Virus record (IMG/VR): IMGVR_UViG_3300044960_000240
Coordinates: 1 to 36,248 of that record
Source of the DNA: a virus
Reading direction: 5' to 3' (one strand)
DNA length: 36,248 nt
Notes under the pieces: model-generated
Databases searched by the model: none
The model's input: the letters and a program-made list of their open reading frames with translations, nothing else
Told to the model about the DNA's origin: nothing
Shown here: positions 13,457 to 33,587 of the stretch, in pieces
Layout of the letters: each line of letters opens with the position of its first letter
Position numbering within the stretch: the stretch's first letter is position 1
Made by a program: the position numbers and the translations under genes

Positions 13457-15745
13457 TTACGGCACGACCGACTTGTCCCACGCGCGGTAGTTGATGACGT
13501 TGCCGCCGTAGATGTGCCGGATCTTGTAGGTCACCTTGTCGTTGGAGAACATCGAGCCGACGGTCGGCGAATCCTGCACGAACATCTCCGGCTCCTCGTT
13601 GCCGTCGAGGAAGCCGATCTCGATGCCGACGAGGTCGTCCACGTCTGCCGAGATCGCCCAGTCGTTCGTGTCCGTCCAGTACGGCACCGGGACCACGGTG
13701 AGCGACATCTGCTGCACGAACGTCTTGTCGAGGTTCGTGTTGCGGTTAAAGAGATCCACCGCGGTCTGCTCGAGGTCGTCGGGCACCCACAGATACCGCG
13801 GCCCGATTCCGAGCCGCTTGTTGCTGCCCGCCTCGGTCTGTTTTTTCATGCGCAGACGGGCAGCGGCGAGCGTCGTCGCATCGAGCGCGCTCGAGCCCAG
13901 ATTGCCGTGCGTCGCGTGAAAGAACGCCACGCCGTCGTAGATCGTCGGGTTGGTGCGCACGAAGTCGAGCACGAATTCGCACAACGTGCGCTTGGCGGCC
14001 CGCGCGAGCGCGATCGGGATGCGCCGGATCGCGCCAACGTCGTCGTTTCGAATCATCTCGAGCGTCAGGTCCTCCGTGCCGCCGCGCTTGCTCGCCGCAT
14101 AGGTGGCTTTCTCGTCGCTGGGCGAGGTGAGCGCGGTGTACGGCGCACCCTGGGCCACCGTCGGAAGGTTCCCGTAGCCGCCGATGCGCGTGCGCTCGTT
14201 GGTGCGGAAATCGGTGACCGGGACCCGGTCGCAGGCGAGACGCCAGGCGTCCCACGCGGTGTTCTCGCGGTATTCCTTGACCATGCGCCGGGTGATCGCG
14301 TTGCCCAGGACGTTCGCCCAGGAGGAGCTGTCCAGCGATTCGCGGAACGCCGCACCCACCGACTCTGCCAGGCGCGCCTTGTCCACGTTCTCCCACTTGC
14401 CGGTGACGCGCCGATCGCCGGTCATCTCGATGTAGCACTCGCGGAACGACTGCACCCGCGCGTGATCCTTGTGCGAGCGATCGAAGAACGCATCGAGCAT
14501 GTCGGCGATCTTCACCGAGCGGTCCTCGACATGGATGTCGAGGCCCTCCATGCGCACGCGGCCGCTCTCGACGAACCGGGCGAGGTAGGCGCGCTCGGCC
14601 TTGATTTCGGCGTCCACGTCGGCCTCGGTGAAACGCTCCATGCCGTCGAAGCGCGCTTGCAGCCTCTCGCGCGCCGGCTCGGGCAGGCCGCAGGAGGCGA
14701 TCTGCGCTCGCGCGTAGGCGCGCGCCTCGATCATGCGCAGCTGCGCGACGGTGACGGGCTTGTCGTCGTCCTTCGACTCCGGCTGCGGCTGCGGCTGCGG
14801 CGCGATCGCGAGCGCCTCGGCATAGCGCGCCTCCAGCTCCTCATCGGTGATCGTGTCGGGATTGATCTTGGCGTACAGCTCGGGCCGCTTCGCCTTGATC
14901 GTGGCGAGCATTCGCTCTTTCATGGGGTCTCGCTCCTTCGGGTCGGCGGCTTCGAGCAGGTTCACGAGCGCGCCGCCGGCGCTCGGCTCCACGATGATGT
15001 CCACGGACGAGACGCGGACGAACTTCTCCGCGATGCGCTTGACACCTTCGCGCACCGACGATTTGGTGAGCGCGTAGGCGTCGATCGAGAGGCCGACCAG
15101 GTCTCGCTTGCCCCGCCGCCAGGCGTCCACCAGCGTTTCGCGCAGCGAGCGCATGCCCGCTGCGATGTTGAGCCGCCCGGCGACGTAGCCGGTGTCGGGC
15201 GCCTGGCCCTCGACGAAGCGCGGCTCGGAGATCCAGCCGGCGATGTTCCGCGGATCCTTGCCCTTGTCCTTGAGATGTTCCTCGTCGGACTTGACGAACA
15301 CTCGCGCTCCGTCGAACAACGGCACCGCCTCGCGCAGCGCGCTGTCGGGGTAGTAGTTGCCGTTCTTCGACCGCCCGGCGCGCACCAGGATCGCGTCCCA
15401 GGCCGTGCCGTCGGCGGCCTTCGCCTCGACCAGCCAGGACTCGGCCGCCGCCTCGCGCACCGCGACCGGCACGTAGGTCTCCAGCACTTCCTCGGGATCC
15501 GAGAGCGTCACCTGGTTGTCCGGGCCGAGCGTGTAGCCGTAACTCCAGTACCGCCCGTCGCGCCGAACGATCACGCGGTCGGCAAAGATCGCCTCGATGC
15601 AGACCATCCACGCCTTGTCGGGCTCGTAGCCGAGCTTCTTGACGAGCGCGGCCTGCACCAGATCGATGATTTGGCGGTATTCGCCGGTCGCGGCTTCACG
15701 CAGCGCCGCCGCGCCGACGATACCCTCGGTCGGAATCGCCCGCAC
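13457..15745 (-). CDS. Fused prohead protease - scaffold - major capsid protein
   Basis: 762 aa, GTG start one base after the upstream TAA. An N-terminal ~95-residue domain is followed by a protease-like domain with a likely catalytic His157 in DEEHLKDKGK and Ser220 in VGLSIDAYA, preceded by the usual LVDAWRRGKRD helix. Residues ~265-400 are charged and helical with a PQPQPQPES linker, as scaffolds are. Residues ~405-762 look like a gpT-type major head protein, with a C-terminal segment containing VGIEIGFLDGNEEPEMFVQD. In Mu these are separate genes (I/Z and T). The reading frame is open throughout, so the capsid must be released by self-cleavage or by internal initiation. Fusions are known in some phages but are uncommon. 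Confidence 0.9.
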   Translation of the reverse strand: MRAIPTEGIVGAAALREAATGEYRQIIDLVQAALVKKLGYEPDKAWMVCIEAIFADRVIVRRDGRYWSYGYTLGPDNQVTLSDPEEVLETYVPVAVREAAAESWLVEAKAADGTAWDAILVRAGRSKNGNYYPDSALREAVPLFDGARVFVKSDEEHLKDKGKDPRNIAGWISEPRFVEGQAPDTGYVAGRLNIAAGMRSLRETLVDAWRRGKRDLVGLSIDAYALTKSSVREGVKRIAEKFVRVSSVDIIVEPSAGGALVNLLEAADPKERDPMKERMLATIKAKRPELYAKINPDTITDEELEARYAEALAIAPQPQPQPESKDDDKPVTVAQLRMIEARAYARAQIASCGLPEPARERLQARFDGMERFTEADVDAEIKAERAYLARFVESGRVRMEGLDIHVEDRSVKIADMLDAFFDRSHKDHARVQSFRECYIEMTGDRRVTGKWENVDKARLAESVGAAFRESLDSSSWANVLGNAITRRMVKEYRENTAWDAWRLACDRVPVTDFRTNERTRIGGYGNLPTVAQGAPYTALTSPSDEKATYAASKRGGTEDLTLEMIRNDDVGAIRRIPIALARAAKRTLCEFVLDFVRTNPTIYDGVAFFHATHGNLGSSALDATTLAAARLRMKKQTEAGSNKRLGIGPRYLWVPDDLEQTAVDLFNRNTNLDKTFVQQMSLTVVPVPYWTDTNDWAISADVDDLVGIEIGFLDGNEEPEMFVQDSPTVGSMFSNDKVTYKIRHIYGGNVINYRAWDKSVVP

Positions 15746-15746
15746 G

Positions 15747-15986
15747 TTACGCGCGCACCTCGTGCCGGCGGCCGTCGAGCGTGACGATCGTCACGCGGCC
15801 GTCGTCATACTGCGCCGCGCCGATGATGTGCCGCTCCGCGAGATCGGCTTCCTCGGCCTTCAGCACCACACGCTCCTTGCCGTCCTCGGCCTTGGCCGTG
15901 ATCGGCTTCGCGATCTGCACCTTGATGGAGCGGCCCTTGAATGCCTTCATCGCCTCTGCCGCGCTGATTTCGGTTCGCTTCGCCAT
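15747..15986 (-). CDS. Small basic protein preceding the capsid gene
   Basis: 79 aa, ATG 15986 with GGAG six bases upstream. Short helix (ISAAEAMKAFKGRSIKVQ) followed by strands, with EEADLAERHIIGAAQYDDGRVTIVTLDGRRHEV at the C-terminus. It is not recognised. It begins the capsid transcription segment, because upstream lie a hairpin repeat and the oppositely oriented nuclease gene. Comparable small proteins just before capsid genes can be head accessory factors, but nothing in the sequence proves that. Confidence 0.75.
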   Translation of the reverse strand: MAKRTEISAAEAMKAFKGRSIKVQIAKPITAKAEDGKERVVLKAEEADLAERHIIGAAQYDDGRVTIVTLDGRRHEVRA

Positions 15987-17758: not shown

Positions 17759-18106
17759 TCAGGCAGCCAGGAGGAGCGCAATGGCAAGCGTCTCCTCCTC
17801 GCGCCGGCGGGCCTCCTCTGGATCGAGCTGGAGCGGCGCGGTCAGCTCGCCGAAGAGTGCAGTGCGATAGGGCGAACGGTCCGAGATGATCACCTGCAGT
17901 GTGGGGCGCTTGGACGGCACCGCAGGCTCGGGCGGATGCGGGACCATGCCGTGATGGCGCTTGCGGCGGCGCCGCTCGGGGTACTCGCCGGTGAGCTTGC
18001 GCCACAGTCCATCCACCACTGCCGGCGCCGCCGCCACGGCGCTCCCACGTCCTAGCCCGTGCGTCAGCAACGGCCCGCCGATCCCTAAGCCACGCAGCAG
18101 GATCAC
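17759..18106 (-). CDS. Hypothetical phage protein between G8 adhesin and MuF
   Basis: 115 aa, GTG start overlapping the upstream stop as GTGA. It begins with a glycine-rich hydrophobic segment (ILLRGLGIGGPLLTHGLG), a start I associate with small structural proteins located near portal or tail genes. A basic middle (EYPERRRRKRHHG) follows, then a beta segment (PTLQVIISDRSPYRTALFG) and a helix ending EEETLAIALLLAA. The function is unknown. The tight overlap with the adhesin gene suggests that the two are translated together and may interact. Confidence 0.75.
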   Translation of the reverse strand: MILLRGLGIGGPLLTHGLGRGSAVAAAPAVVDGLWRKLTGEYPERRRRKRHHGMVPHPPEPAVPSKRPTLQVIISDRSPYRTALFGELTAPLQLDPEEARRREEETLAIALLLAA

Positions 18107-19356
18107 GTGTACCGCTCCACTCGATGCGGCGGCTGCGTGCCGTTGTACAGCGTCGTGCCGTCCTTGTCGCTGTAGACGGCGCGCGTGAACAACACCGCAC
18201 CGTTGTCGTCGTAGACCGTCTCGATGCCTGTCGCGGTGTCGAGCACGCGCTTGTTCCTCAGCAGCTTGCGTGCCAGCGTGCTCTCCGTCGCCGCCAGCGC
18301 GGAGTAGCTCGCGGCATCCGCGAGCTGCGCGGCCTGCGAGCCGGACAGCCCGGAACCTGTCGCATAGGGCACGACATGGTCTGGTGCGAGGTAGATGTCG
18401 CCACCGCTCGTGTCGATGATGTCCTTCGACGAGCCGCTCGATGCGTCCCGCCCCCAGCCGCCAGTGACGATCAACGGGACTTCGGGCGACGAGATGTTTT
18501 TCAGTTTCATGCTCGTCAACAAATAGTTCGCCGTGTCGGGCGCGTCGATATAGGCGATGTCGCTGCGTATGCCTGCCTCGGTGAAGCGGTAGTACACGAA
18601 GGCGGCGTAAATCTTGGCCCAGGTGTAATTCCCGCCCGTGACGTTGATGTTCACCAAGTCGGTACTGGCGTCGGTGAACGTCACGTCACTCCCGTAGTAC
18701 GTCGCGCCATCCAAGCCGTTATTGATGTAGACGGTGTCGTTCACCTGGTTCACCAAATAGCTCACCGCCGCAGTGGCGGCCGTCGTGCCGGATCCAGGCG
18801 TGATCGTCGCGATCGTGACCACATCCACCCGCGGCACCGCGTTGTACGCCTGGGTGGTCGCGAACACGAGCTTGTCGCCGACCCTCCAGCCCGTCGCGTC
18901 GTCCACCACCACCGAGGTGCTCGAATTGGCGGTCAGCGCCCCCTGCGTATAGGTGTAGGGCGTCTTCGCCGCGCCGCGCAGGATGAAATTGCCTTGGATC
19001 GAGAGCAAGTAGCCTGCACCGCTAGCCGCCCCTACGTTCGCCAATCGCAACTCAGCCTTGATCGCTGGAAACGCCGACAGATCGTAGAGCAGGTTCGACA
19101 CCGGCGAAGCGGTGGCGGCTGTCGTGATGCCCTGCTGTACCGTCAGCTTGGAGTTCGCGCTCGTCGATGGCTGCAGCGTACCGCCGCCGGCCACGGTGAC
19201 GGAGTTGGCCACCGCCGTCGTCACGTCCACGGTCACGGTGTGCCCGTTCGCGATCGTGACGTCGTCCGCTGCGGTCGGCAGCACGCCGCCCGGCCACGGC
19301 GCATTCGGCGCTGTGGAGGACCAGTTGCCAGACCCGCCGGTCGTGATCGCTGCCAT
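18103..19356 (-). CDS. G8-domain-like structural adhesin in the head module
   Basis: 417 aa. The N-terminus (GGSGNWSS, then WPGGVLPTAADDVTIANGHTVTVD in two pieces) matches the G8 domain pattern, W...GG.LP...D.V.I..GHTVTVD, found in extracellular beta-helix proteins. Then follow repeated Val/Thr/Ala strands and a C-terminal region with long insertions and a final helical part (ADAASYSALAATESTLARKLL, split across a turn), ending with RVERYT. It sits between the portal and MuF genes, unusual for an adhesin, and the DNA is less GC-rich than its neighbours. It may decorate the capsid or form neck fibres. No enzyme motif is seen. Confidence 0.8.
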   Translation of the reverse strand: MAAITTGGSGNWSSTAPNAPWPGGVLPTAADDVTIANGHTVTVDVTTAVANSVTVAGGGTLQPSTSANSKLTVQQGITTAATASPVSNLLYDLSAFPAIKAELRLANVGAASGAGYLLSIQGNFILRGAAKTPYTYTQGALTANSSTSVVVDDATGWRVGDKLVFATTQAYNAVPRVDVVTIATITPGSGTTAATAAVSYLVNQVNDTVYINNGLDGATYYGSDVTFTDASTDLVNINVTGGNYTWAKIYAAFVYYRFTEAGIRSDIAYIDAPDTANYLLTSMKLKNISSPEVPLIVTGGWGRDASSGSSKDIIDTSGGDIYLAPDHVVPYATGSGLSGSQAAQLADAASYSALAATESTLARKLLRNKRVLDTATGIETVYDDNGAVLFTRAVYSDKDGTTLYNGTQPPHRVERYT

Positions 19357-30309: not shown

Positions 30310-30535
30310 CGCGCGTCCTTTCGGCGTCGTTCGCCTCGGCGAGCAGCCTTTGCGCGAGCAGTCGCGCGCAGGTGGGATCGAGCTCTACGCACACGGACTC
30401 GACGGCATGCCGGCGGCACACGCACAGCCGCACGGCGCCGTGCAGAGTGCCTGTGCGCACGTCGGCGCTGCCCACCGACTCGCCCATGATTCGCACCGGT
30501 GCCGAGATCACAACGTCGGAGACCGGAGCGCTCAC
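30302..30535 (-). CDS. Small early protein after B, hypothetical
   Basis: 77 aa, GTG 30535 overlapping the B stop as GTGA. A beta-rich first part (SAPVRIMGESVGSADVRTGT, then LHGAVRLCVCRRHAVESVCV) and a helical C-terminus (ARLLAQRLLAEANDAERTR). Three cysteines occur in CVCRRHAVESVC. Not recognised. Translational coupling to B suggests a transposition- or replication-linked role, but there is no direct evidence. Confidence 0.68.
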   Translation of the reverse strand: MSAPVSDVVISAPVRIMGESVGSADVRTGTLHGAVRLCVCRRHAVESVCVELDPTCARLLAQRLLAEANDAERTRDA

Positions 30536-31287
30536 ATCGCCCTCCTGACCGGCGCCTCGCCGGTGTAAAAGGGCCTGCTCCCCCAGTCCTTCAGCGTCGC
30601 AGCCTTCGCGGGGCCGCTCCCGCCTCCAGTGGACTTGAAGTGCTGCCGGATGTTCTCGATGTTCACCACCACGCGCCGCGTGACGCCGCGCGTCACCTCG
30701 ATGACCCGCTCGAGGAGGTCATCAGAGATCGTCTGGTCCGGCGAGTAGAGCTTCACCAACTTCCTCGCGTCTTCGAGATCGCAGGGCTCGGCCGGGCACC
30801 AATCGAGGACGCGGTTATGGAACCGCTCCCAGCGCTTGAGCTTCGCGGGAAACCGCTCCTCGCCCACCATCAGCACCGGCGCGTTCGAGACCTCGTAGAT
30901 GTCGCGCACCAGCTCGACCAGGTTGCGGTCCACGATGTGGTCCATCTCGTCGATGATCAGCGGCCGGCGCGACAGCACCAGCTCCTCGCCGATCTGCTTG
31001 ACCATCTCGTAGATCGTCTTGCCTGGCCGGATGCCGATTTCCTCCAGGATCATCAGGAGGAGCGACTTCTTCGTGAGGTAGCTCCGGCATTCGATGTACA
31101 CGGCGCGGTGCTTGTTCGCGACCACCGCCATCGCGGTGGATTTCCCGAAACCCGAGGGGCCGTACATCACGCCCATGCCCGGCATCGAGGGCGCGCGATT
31201 GACCAGGTGGTCCATGACCCGCAACGCGAGGGCGACGTTCTTCAGCGAGGCGAACGTCGTGTTGACGGGGGGCGAGTTTTTGGTCAT
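30532..31287 (-). CDS. B: MuB-type transposition ATPase
   Basis: 251 aa AAA+ ATPase: Walker A GPSGFGKST at 43-51, Walker B PLIIDEMDH at 109-117, and a sensor-like VLMVGEERFPAKL followed by the C-terminal helical lid. MuB binds target DNA, stimulates the transposase and gives target immunity. It is about 60 residues shorter than Mu's 312-aa protein; Walker A is near the N-terminus, so the N-terminal HTH appendage of MuB is absent. A possible 10-codon leader frame (31284-31316) ends in an ATGA overlap with the B start. Follows transposase A after a 71-base gap. Confidence 0.93.
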   Translation of the reverse strand: MTKNSPPVNTTFASLKNVALALRVMDHLVNRAPSMPGMGVMYGPSGFGKSTAMAVVANKHRAVYIECRSYLTKKSLLLMILEEIGIRPGKTIYEMVKQIGEELVLSRRPLIIDEMDHIVDRNLVELVRDIYEVSNAPVLMVGEERFPAKLKRWERFHNRVLDWCPAEPCDLEDARKLVKLYSPDQTISDDLLERVIEVTRGVTRRVVVNIENIRQHFKSTGGGSGPAKAATLKDWGSRPFYTGEAPVRRAM

Positions 31288-31358: not shown

Positions 31359-33587
31359 TCATCCCCTCGCGGCCAGGCGTTGCTCGAACTCCGCGTCCAG
31401 CTCCCGCTGGATGCGGAAGTAATCGCTCGACTGCCACGCCTGCCAGAACTCCTCATCGCGCTCGGCGAGTGCCTCGCCGGCGGATCGGCGTGCATCGAGC
31501 GTCTGCCAATAGGCGTGCTTCTCGGTGTCGGAGCGCAGCTCGTGCACTGTCACCTGCACCGGCGCGCCGCCCTCGGCCTCGAGCTGCGCCATGTAGCGCT
31601 GCGCCTCGGCATCGAGCGGCCGCGGCTGAATGCGCGGACGCTCGAGCGGGTGGCGGAAGTCCGGCCGCACAATGCGAGGCGCCTTGATCGTCGGATCCGC
31701 GCCGGCGGTCCCTTGCGCACCAGCCAGCAGGCGCGCTGTCGCCAGCTCGTCCATGCGCCGCTCGGCATCGAGCTGCGCGCGCGCGGCCTTGAGGAACGCC
31801 CGGCGGTTGCGCGCATGCTCGCGCGCCGCCGCCGCATCATTGAATGCCGCCGGGTCCACGCACTCCGCGAAGCAGATGTAGCGCCCATCGGCCGTATAGA
31901 CGTGCACTCCCTTGTGCAGCTCCTGCGGGTCAAAGCGCGCGACCACCTTGCGCCCGGCCAGGTCCACCAGGTCCGCGGACCAGTAGCGGTTGGCGAGCCG
32001 CTCGCCGACCATGCGCCCCGAGTCGAGCTTGATCGTGCCATCGCGCCCGACTGCGATCTCCTCGGTCGCGAGCAGCCACAGCCGCATCTGCGCCTCTGTC
32101 GGCCGCCGAGGAATCAGCCGCACATAGGATTCTTCGAACACTCGATCGAAGGATCGTCCCTTGGCGATACCGGAACGCCGGCCCTCGCGCGCGTTCCACG
32201 CCGCAACCTCGCGCTCGATCACGCGCTCCAAGTCAGCCAGCGGGACGGCGCGATGCTTGCCGTCGTAGTCGGGCTTGTCCACGGTCGAGGAGCCGGTCCA
32301 GGCGCCGGCGAACTCCGGCGCCTTGTCGATGTATTCGCCGATGCCGCCGACGCCGAAGGCACGCTCGACCGGCTTCGCCTGGCCGTGGCCCGGGGTGGCC
32401 CACATCACGCGCACGCCGAGCAGCTGGAAGACGCCGAGCGGCTCCTCCTCGCGCACGCGGAAGCGGAATCGGTGCCGGACGCCGCCGGACATCGTCTTGT
32501 TCGCGGCTGCGAGCGTGTTGTCTATGAGCACCGCGTCGGGAATGCCGTAGCGCCTGCACAGGTCGCCGAAAGAAAGGCGGATGACCTCGGTGTGCTCGGT
32601 TTTGTCCGTCCTCCAGGCCAAAATCTTCGAGCTGTAGACGTCCTGCCAGTACCAGGTCTGAGCACGCCGGACTTCGCCGTCGGGGAAGCGCACCCAGAGG
32701 TTGTGCTTGTAGCCATCGGCGTTGACGATGGCGAGCGCAGTGAGCGCCGCGCGCACGCGCGCCTGAGCCGGGTAGAGCTGCATGGCGGCCTTACGCCCTT
32801 CCCGGGCCAGCACGCGCACGTGACGCGGTATCGCTTGCAGCCGGCGCAACAGCGTCCGGTTCGAAGGTATGGACCAGTCCGGGCGAGCCTTGGCCGCGCG
32901 GCGCAGCCGGTCGATGCACGCCGCTGCGCTGCGGCGCTCGGGAGCGAGATACTCGGCCTTGAGGAACTCCCACGCCTCGGCGCTCATCGGCGCCGTCGCG
33001 ACGCGACCTCTGTGGCCGGGCGCCAATAAATAGAGCCAGAGGTGCTCGGGCTGGCCCTTGACCAGGCCGAGGTAACGCCACAGCGTCGGCTCGGAGATCC
33101 CCCGCTCGCGCTGCAGAGCAGAGACCACGGCGGTGCCATCGAAGCCGAGCCCGCGCAGCCTGTGGTACTCCTGCACGATCACGAGGCGCCGGCGCGCCTC
33201 GGCCTTCAGGCGCTCGGGCTGCGCCTCGAAGGTCTCTGCGAGTGATTCGGAGCGGGCGTCTGGCGTCGCACCAGAGCCGGGGGAGGAGTTGCCGGCCTCG
33301 CTATCGAGCGCCCGCATGCAAGAAAAAGCCCCGGCGGCGGCGAGGGAGGAGGATTCCGCCGCCGGGGCGCCAGAGAGGAACATCCTCTCCGCAAGAGCTG
33401 CCTGGACGTCGGACGGCAGATCGGCGATTCGATAGACGCGCTTCTTGCCGCCGCGCCCCGGCTGCCGGTACGCCGTCCAGCCTTGCTTCTTCGCGCGCTT
33501 GTGAACATTTTGGCGAGCTATGCCGAGGGCGGCCGCGATCTGGCGCTCGGACACCACTGTCGCGGCTCCGTCAGCCTCTTTTTTCAT
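31359..33587 (-). CDS. A: MuA-type DDE transposase
   Basis: 742 aa. N-terminal Mu-type HTH (SERQIAAALGIARQNVHKRA, then KKQGWTAYRQPGRGGKKRVY), additional end-binding helices (~120-260), and the integrase-fold core with D291 (VNADGYKHNL), D356 (VLIDNTLAAANK) and E408 (HGQAKPVERAFG). The D-D and D-E spacing (65, 52) is close to MuA (67, 56). The C-terminal region has the Mu-type beta barrel (VHVYTADGRYICFAECVD) and a tail for contact with B. It carries out strand transfer for integration and replicative transposition. ATG 33587 overlaps the upstream gene by 17 bases. Confidence 0.96.
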   Translation of the reverse strand: MKKEADGAATVVSERQIAAALGIARQNVHKRAKKQGWTAYRQPGRGGKKRVYRIADLPSDVQAALAERMFLSGAPAAESSSLAAAGAFSCMRALDSEAGNSSPGSGATPDARSESLAETFEAQPERLKAEARRRLVIVQEYHRLRGLGFDGTAVVSALQRERGISEPTLWRYLGLVKGQPEHLWLYLLAPGHRGRVATAPMSAEAWEFLKAEYLAPERRSAAACIDRLRRAAKARPDWSIPSNRTLLRRLQAIPRHVRVLAREGRKAAMQLYPAQARVRAALTALAIVNADGYKHNLWVRFPDGEVRRAQTWYWQDVYSSKILAWRTDKTEHTEVIRLSFGDLCRRYGIPDAVLIDNTLAAANKTMSGGVRHRFRFRVREEEPLGVFQLLGVRVMWATPGHGQAKPVERAFGVGGIGEYIDKAPEFAGAWTGSSTVDKPDYDGKHRAVPLADLERVIEREVAAWNAREGRRSGIAKGRSFDRVFEESYVRLIPRRPTEAQMRLWLLATEEIAVGRDGTIKLDSGRMVGERLANRYWSADLVDLAGRKVVARFDPQELHKGVHVYTADGRYICFAECVDPAAFNDAAAAREHARNRRAFLKAARAQLDAERRMDELATARLLAGAQGTAGADPTIKAPRIVRPDFRHPLERPRIQPRPLDAEAQRYMAQLEAEGGAPVQVTVHELRSDTEKHAYWQTLDARRSAGEALAERDEEFWQAWQSSDYFRIQRELDAEFEQRLAARG

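Follow-up and report, generated by a model that had tools for sequence, protein, structure and literature searches.

In phage lambda (C/Nu3), phage Mu (I/Z) and the herpesviruses (UL26/UL26.5), the scaffold is produced from an internal, in-frame and 3'-coterminal start within the protease gene, and the major capsid protein (MCP) is encoded by a separate gene. In phage HK97, the scaffold (delta domain) is fused to an MCP in gp5, which gives a 1:1 ratio of both (PMC10275583), and the protease is encoded by a separate gene. For Salmonella phage Gifsy-2, the title of the original paper speaks of a "tripartite capsid gene" (Effantin et al., 2010, Virology 402:355; title as given in PMC8538268). This Gifsy-2 gene carries a ClpP-type protease, a scaffold and an MCP in one frame, with AGGAG-9-ATG at its protease/scaffold boundary (Met221). 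Likewise, gp8 of Stenotrophomonas phage S1 (NF045541/PHROG 4523) is a fused prohead protease, scaffold and MCP, with AGGAG-6-ATG at its Met207; its N-terminal part is presumably of the S78 type, judging from its motifs.

The gene described here lies in a stretch of viral DNA of 36,248 nucleotides (IMG/VR record IMGVR_UViG_3300044960_000240), hereafter the window. Like the genes of Gifsy-2 and S1, it contains the three parts in a single frame, and its MCP is homologous to that of Gifsy-2. Its protease differs from the ClpP-type enzyme of Gifsy-2 in having a predicted gp21/assemblin fold, and only the C-terminal part of S1 gp8 can be aligned to it. The fused gene is therefore of a known kind (Gifsy-2, NCBIfam), but its branch differs by the protease fold and by scores under the curated cut-offs: (i) NF045540 (ClpP-like prohead protease/MCP fusion) reached 158.7 bits against a cut-off of 475, at residues 400-759 only; and (ii) NF045541 (prohead protease/MCP fusion) reached 185.9 bits against 525, at residues 305-758. 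The product of the internal start described below would consist of scaffold plus HK97-fold MCP, as in HK97 gp5, with the protease fused upstream in the same frame instead of standing apart as in HK97; in lambda, Mu and the herpesviruses, by contrast, the internal product does not include the MCP. By analogy, this start would combine the nested scaffolds of lambda and Mu with the kind of scaffold-capsid fusion found in HK97. A literature search by title and abstract returned nothing on internal starts in such fusions, and the Gifsy-2 paper or another one may propose one.

One reading frame for protease, scaffold and capsid

The protease-scaffold-MCP gene (13457..15745, minus strand), delimited by ORF calls and family matches, is an unbroken ORF of 762 codons that begins with GTG and encodes 762 aa (about 84.9 kDa). 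PHROG 29592, whose function is not annotated, matches it at full length (residues 15-761, E 1e-198), and PHROG 4523 ("major head and protease protein") and PHROG 133 match its C-terminal half. The proposal made in a sequence-only reading, that protease, scaffold and capsid share one 762-aa frame, is borne out by the ORF, the family matches and the fold matches: an N-terminal protease, a central scaffold and a C-terminal MCP follow one another without interruption. The mirror ORF on the opposite strand (13514..15784, plus strand) was rejected as a real gene, since Pfam and PHROG gave no meaningful family match for it.

By its gene content, the genome is that of a Mu-like transposable phage. It encodes relatives of MuA (31359-33587) and MuB (30532-31287), a gp27-type small terminase, a large terminase and a portal. 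The ORF is preceded by a small gene, and this in turn by a MuF-like gene. The head module of Mu has protease (gpI) and MCP (gpT) as separate genes; here there is one ORF. A scan of the window for a separate S78 protease found none, and its positive control was detected; a search with PF10123 gave no match, but neither did its positive control. A window-wide search for repeats revealed nothing relevant. Between the portal and MuF-like genes there is also an ORF of 417 aa (18103-19356, minus strand) in which Pfam recognizes a G8 domain (E 2.2e-7), an unusual domain for a cluster of head genes; no relative of this ORF was found in the phage collection.

The AlphaFold2 model of the whole protein (mean pLDDT 77) begins with a domain at residues 1-87 and, after a disordered stretch, continues with a beta-rich domain up to residue 255; one disordered linker (256-273) leads to helices (274-393), and a second one (393-406) to the capsid fold, which reaches the C-terminus. 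In this model, the first 87 residues (15485..15745, minus strand) form a conserved alpha/beta domain, for which whole-protein scans yielded no clear family match.

The protease domain occupies residues 112-255 approximately (14981..15412, minus strand). In a VIA-align comparison with the whole model, residues 91-255 matched T4 gp21 (5jbl) with Z 13.4 and 2.8 A over 145 residues. When modelled alone, the protease reached a pLDDT of 89; its best VIA-align match was again gp21 (Z 10.9), followed by the proteases of varicella-zoster, pseudorabies, Kaposi and cytomegalovirus. VIA-align was run on chains ranked by Foldseek; a Foldseek search by itself, with the protease domain on its own, had no significant match, and a search of the sequences of solved structures with the single protein and a protease profile gave none either. 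Among families, PHROG 15531 ("head maturation protease") weakly matches residues 104-414, and one match to the S77 family lends the protease call weak support. On the basis of VIA-align on Foldseek-ranked chains and these weak family matches, the modelled protease is of the T4 gp21/herpesvirus assemblin fold. In an alignment of 33 sequences, H157 (15275-15277), G170, S220 (15086-15088) and D249 (14999-15001; all on the minus strand) are invariant in the protease part, His157 and Ser220 being among the few invariant columns of the alignment. These two are the likely catalytic residues, in agreement with the pair proposed at the outset, and D249 is a possible third.

The scaffold domain, all helical in the AlphaFold2 model, extends from residue 275 to about 400 (14546..14923, minus strand). 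A charged Pro/Gln linker had been supposed to lead directly into the capsid; such a stretch does exist (about residues 313-330; 14756-14809, minus strand), but it lies inside the scaffold. What precedes the capsid is the linker of residues 393-406 (14528..14569, minus strand), whose low pLDDT marks it as disordered and which is the probable region of maturation cleavage.

An HK97-type MCP makes up the C-terminal half (residues 409-762 approximately; 13460..14521, minus strand), as indicated by Pfam, AlphaFold2 and fold matches. Phage_capsid_4 (PF25209) matches residues 469-755 (E 1.3e-47; 163.8 bits, the cut-off being 27), the Mu-like gpT family gives a weak Pfam match in the same half, and VIA-align pairs residues 419-762 with HK97-fold capsids and encapsulins (Z 12-15).

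Occurrence of the fusion in related sequences

Homologues, most of them full length, were found on 25 viral contigs, on 10 bacterial genome contigs and in Microcystis phage Mae-JY22 (PP438414.1). The homologue of the latter is 51% identical over 99%, is annotated as a hypothetical protein only and has GGAG-9-ATG at its protease/scaffold boundary. Scans with MCP and protease alignments returned 205 sequences in total, 184 of which are ORFs with both domains; overlapping scans fetched some contigs repeatedly and, hence, the set was reduced to 91 non-redundant fused ORFs.

The concern that a sequencing error might hide a stop or a frameshift between the two halves can be set aside: the unbroken frame is genuine, because those 184 ORFs on fetched contigs also have protease and MCP together. 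Judging from these contigs, fusion is the rule within this capsid family, which Mu would not have led one to expect. The initial idea of an exceptional arrangement thus did not hold, since the fusion is usual in the family and has already been named for Gifsy-2, in NCBIfam and in PHROG.

The only genuine split was seen in the archaeal Methanoculleus virus Blf4, which has separate genes for a protease-scaffold, a decoration-like protein and an MCP; despite the separate MCP, its protease-scaffold gene retains AGGAG-8-ATG at the equivalent place. Two other candidate splits were discarded, namely L107, where the scaffold part of a fused gene is interrupted by a frame break, and L138, which is truncated. 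A further sequence (L020) has a lone MCP and no protease on the stretch examined.

The probable start site between protease and scaffold

At the protease/scaffold boundary, the disordered linker that follows the protease contains a Shine-Dalgarno (SD) sequence, AAGGAG (14933..14938, minus strand), and 9 nt after it an in-frame ATG at codon 275 (Met275; 14921..14923, minus strand). All 34 homologues that cover the boundary have an in-frame start preceded by an SD match of 4 nt or more, while the residues and the exact position vary. The scaffold is thus preceded by a conserved in-frame internal ribosome-binding site and start. In the larger set, a start codon preceded by an SD match is found within 45 codons after the protease in 91 of the 91 non-redundant ORFs, compared to 232 of 853 control windows that had the same size, came from the same ORFs and were scanned identically. 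When an ATG behind an SD of 5 nt or more is considered, the figures are 60/91 and 35/853, respectively. The site is sharply located, as one 10-codon bin along the gene contains 51 of the 91 ORFs and every other bin at most 4. The start codons are ATG (Met) in 86 ORFs, GTG (Val) in four and TTG (Leu) in one; that is to say, amid poorly conserved neighbouring residues, this position is only ever Met, Val or Leu by way of start codons.

Synonymous shuffles, in which the protein was kept fixed and codons were drawn from each gene's own usage, gave a summed SD length of 303.6 +/- 15.7 (maximum 349 in 1000) versus 454 observed, a test which is slightly biased upward, as the start is the best candidate in its window, whereas the comparison with control windows treats both sides alike. 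A smaller set agrees. By these counts, the internal SD and start codon are under selection at the nucleotide level.

The profile along the 91 genes displays no comparable peak of SD and start at the scaffold/MCP junction, and a start for free MCP near codon 400 was rejected on that ground. The ribosome-binding site that had been sought near codon 400 is not there; the internal start lies at codon 275 instead.

The site is also found in fused genes with other proteases. Ten fused genes of known phages (Gifsy-2, Fels-1, mEp043, mEp460, JBD68, Pmp14, PSTCR8lys, Chris1, S1 and Pd_22F) have an SD-preceded ATG at the equivalent boundary. Among non-redundant relatives, an ATG with an SD of at least 4 nt lies within 60 codons from the protease in 45 of 47 ClpP-fused genes and in 8 of 15 S78-fused genes, the latter class being defined by similarity to the N-terminal part of S1 gp8. 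Of the seven S78-fused relatives without such an ATG, one (L319) uses a GTG behind AAGGAG. Several S78-fused genes without an SD retain the internal ATG behind an A-rich leader (such leaders occur in L311, L314, L316, L320, L346 and L359), as expected for hosts presumed not to rely on SD initiation.

Two proposed products and the dose of protease

The start codon of the full-length protein, GTG (15743..15745, minus strand), comes 1 nt after the TAA of the upstream gene, which stands directly before it; this small gene (15747..15986, minus strand) encodes 79 aa without a family match. A possible SD for the GTG is GAGGTG (15756..15761, minus strand), at a spacing of 10 nt. The GTG is probably translationally coupled to the upstream gene. 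In the homologues, the main starts, as tentatively assigned, have mostly an SD of 0-4 nt and are located at, or overlap, the preceding stop codon.

Considering the domain order, the fold matches, the invariant residues and the conserved internal SD and start, all of them read from the sequence, the ORF is very likely a nested (3'-coterminal) head gene with a minor product of about 85 kDa (protease-scaffold-MCP) and a major one of about 55 kDa (scaffold-MCP). The predicted masses are 84.9 kDa for the full-length product and 54.9 kDa for the internal one (488 aa). Ribosomes that start at the GTG (15745), in a coupled and weaker manner, would make the full-length protein, while those initiating in vivo at ATG275 (14923) would make the scaffold-MCP as the stronger product. 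The latter would be the bulk building block, equivalent to the delta-domain capsid precursor of HK97. The minority of full-length subunits, whose scaffold and capsid parts are identical to those of the shorter form, would co-assemble with it by means of these parts, so that the procapsid would receive a limited number of proteases. Once assembly is complete, the protease (His157/Ser220) would cut near residues 393-406 and so remove both itself and the scaffold; a mature MCP of about 40 kDa would remain. The predominance of the internal product is suggested by codon and spacing preference and by the homologues; the ratio is the weakest link of the scheme, because the window's own GTG has a fair SD (GAGGTG at 10 nt).

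It had been suggested that every capsid subunit would carry its own protease and scaffold unless an internal start changed the stoichiometry. The second part of this suggestion stands insofar as SD and start are conserved at the boundary in all the homologues tested in this branch; the first is not supported, as the same conservation argues otherwise, and a protease on every subunit appears unlikely. In its strict form, the first part describes a pure polyprotein, i.e. only the 85-kDa protein is made, and the protease and scaffold borne by each subunit are excised after assembly. The unbroken frame of all fused homologues and the presence of a usable upstream start agree with this. Nevertheless, it is improbable, since an SD and a start selected at the nucleotide level at one site in 91/91 ORFs would then serve no purpose, and neither would the A-rich leaders where the SD is absent.

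SD-like sequences within genes have been proposed to slow ribosomes, and the internal motif, placed as it is in a disordered inter-domain linker of the AlphaFold2 model, might accordingly be a pause that helps the protease to fold before the scaffold is synthesized, rather than a start. But a pause does not need a start codon at 4-10 nt, yet Met is found in 86/91 and GTG or TTG in the other five, and in likely non-SD hosts the ATG remains though the SD has been lost, so that a pause is very improbable. Hardly any credence is given to an acidic Glu/Asp linker and a Met selected for protein reasons (e.g., a protease cleavage site), with the SD as a by-product of Glu codons: it is true that Glu is common at 3-4 residues ahead of the Met (45/91 at -4), and that the amino acids alone yield SD matches of 4 nt or more in about 63 of the 91 ORFs per shuffle, but the observed SD strength exceeds that of all synonymous shuffles, the motif changes register and residues between lineages, and the Glu codons there are biased to GAG (26:7 versus 995:452 elsewhere, a small sample).

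The S1-like scaffold-MCP unit stands behind a ClpP protease in two relatives (L325 and L336), as opposed to the S78 protease in phage S1 itself (L038). The similarity of both to S1 begins at residue 203, 4 residues before Met207 of S1, and the ribosome site is retained. Such a beginning just before the internal ribosome site suggests an exchange of protease domains at that point, i.e. a protease swapped upstream of an intact unit of ribosome site, scaffold and MCP. Taken together, with moderate confidence, a host-adapted internal start may be a general and unannotated control element of protease-scaffold-capsid fusions that sets the dose of protease per procapsid, in a unit that recombines intact while unrelated proteases (ClpP, S78, gp21-like) are swapped in front of it.

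Fused protease-capsid genes pose the puzzle of how hundreds of proteases inside the shell are avoided, and a conserved internal start would be a simple and testable answer. It would link the three classes of fusion and the nested scaffold genes of lambda and Mu into one design principle. As regards annotation, the main capsid precursor is probably an unannotated 488-aa product, not the 762-aa ORF.

Finally, in two related contigs (L023:2771-6130 and L025:2867-6145) a 2H phosphoesterase/LigT domain in which both HxT motifs are present (PF13563, E 1e-14) is joined, with no intervening stop, to the N-terminal side of the fused ORF, and these are possibly four-part capsid genes. Because some phage 2H enzymes are anti-defence factors, this domain might, by analogy, be carried in the procapsid.
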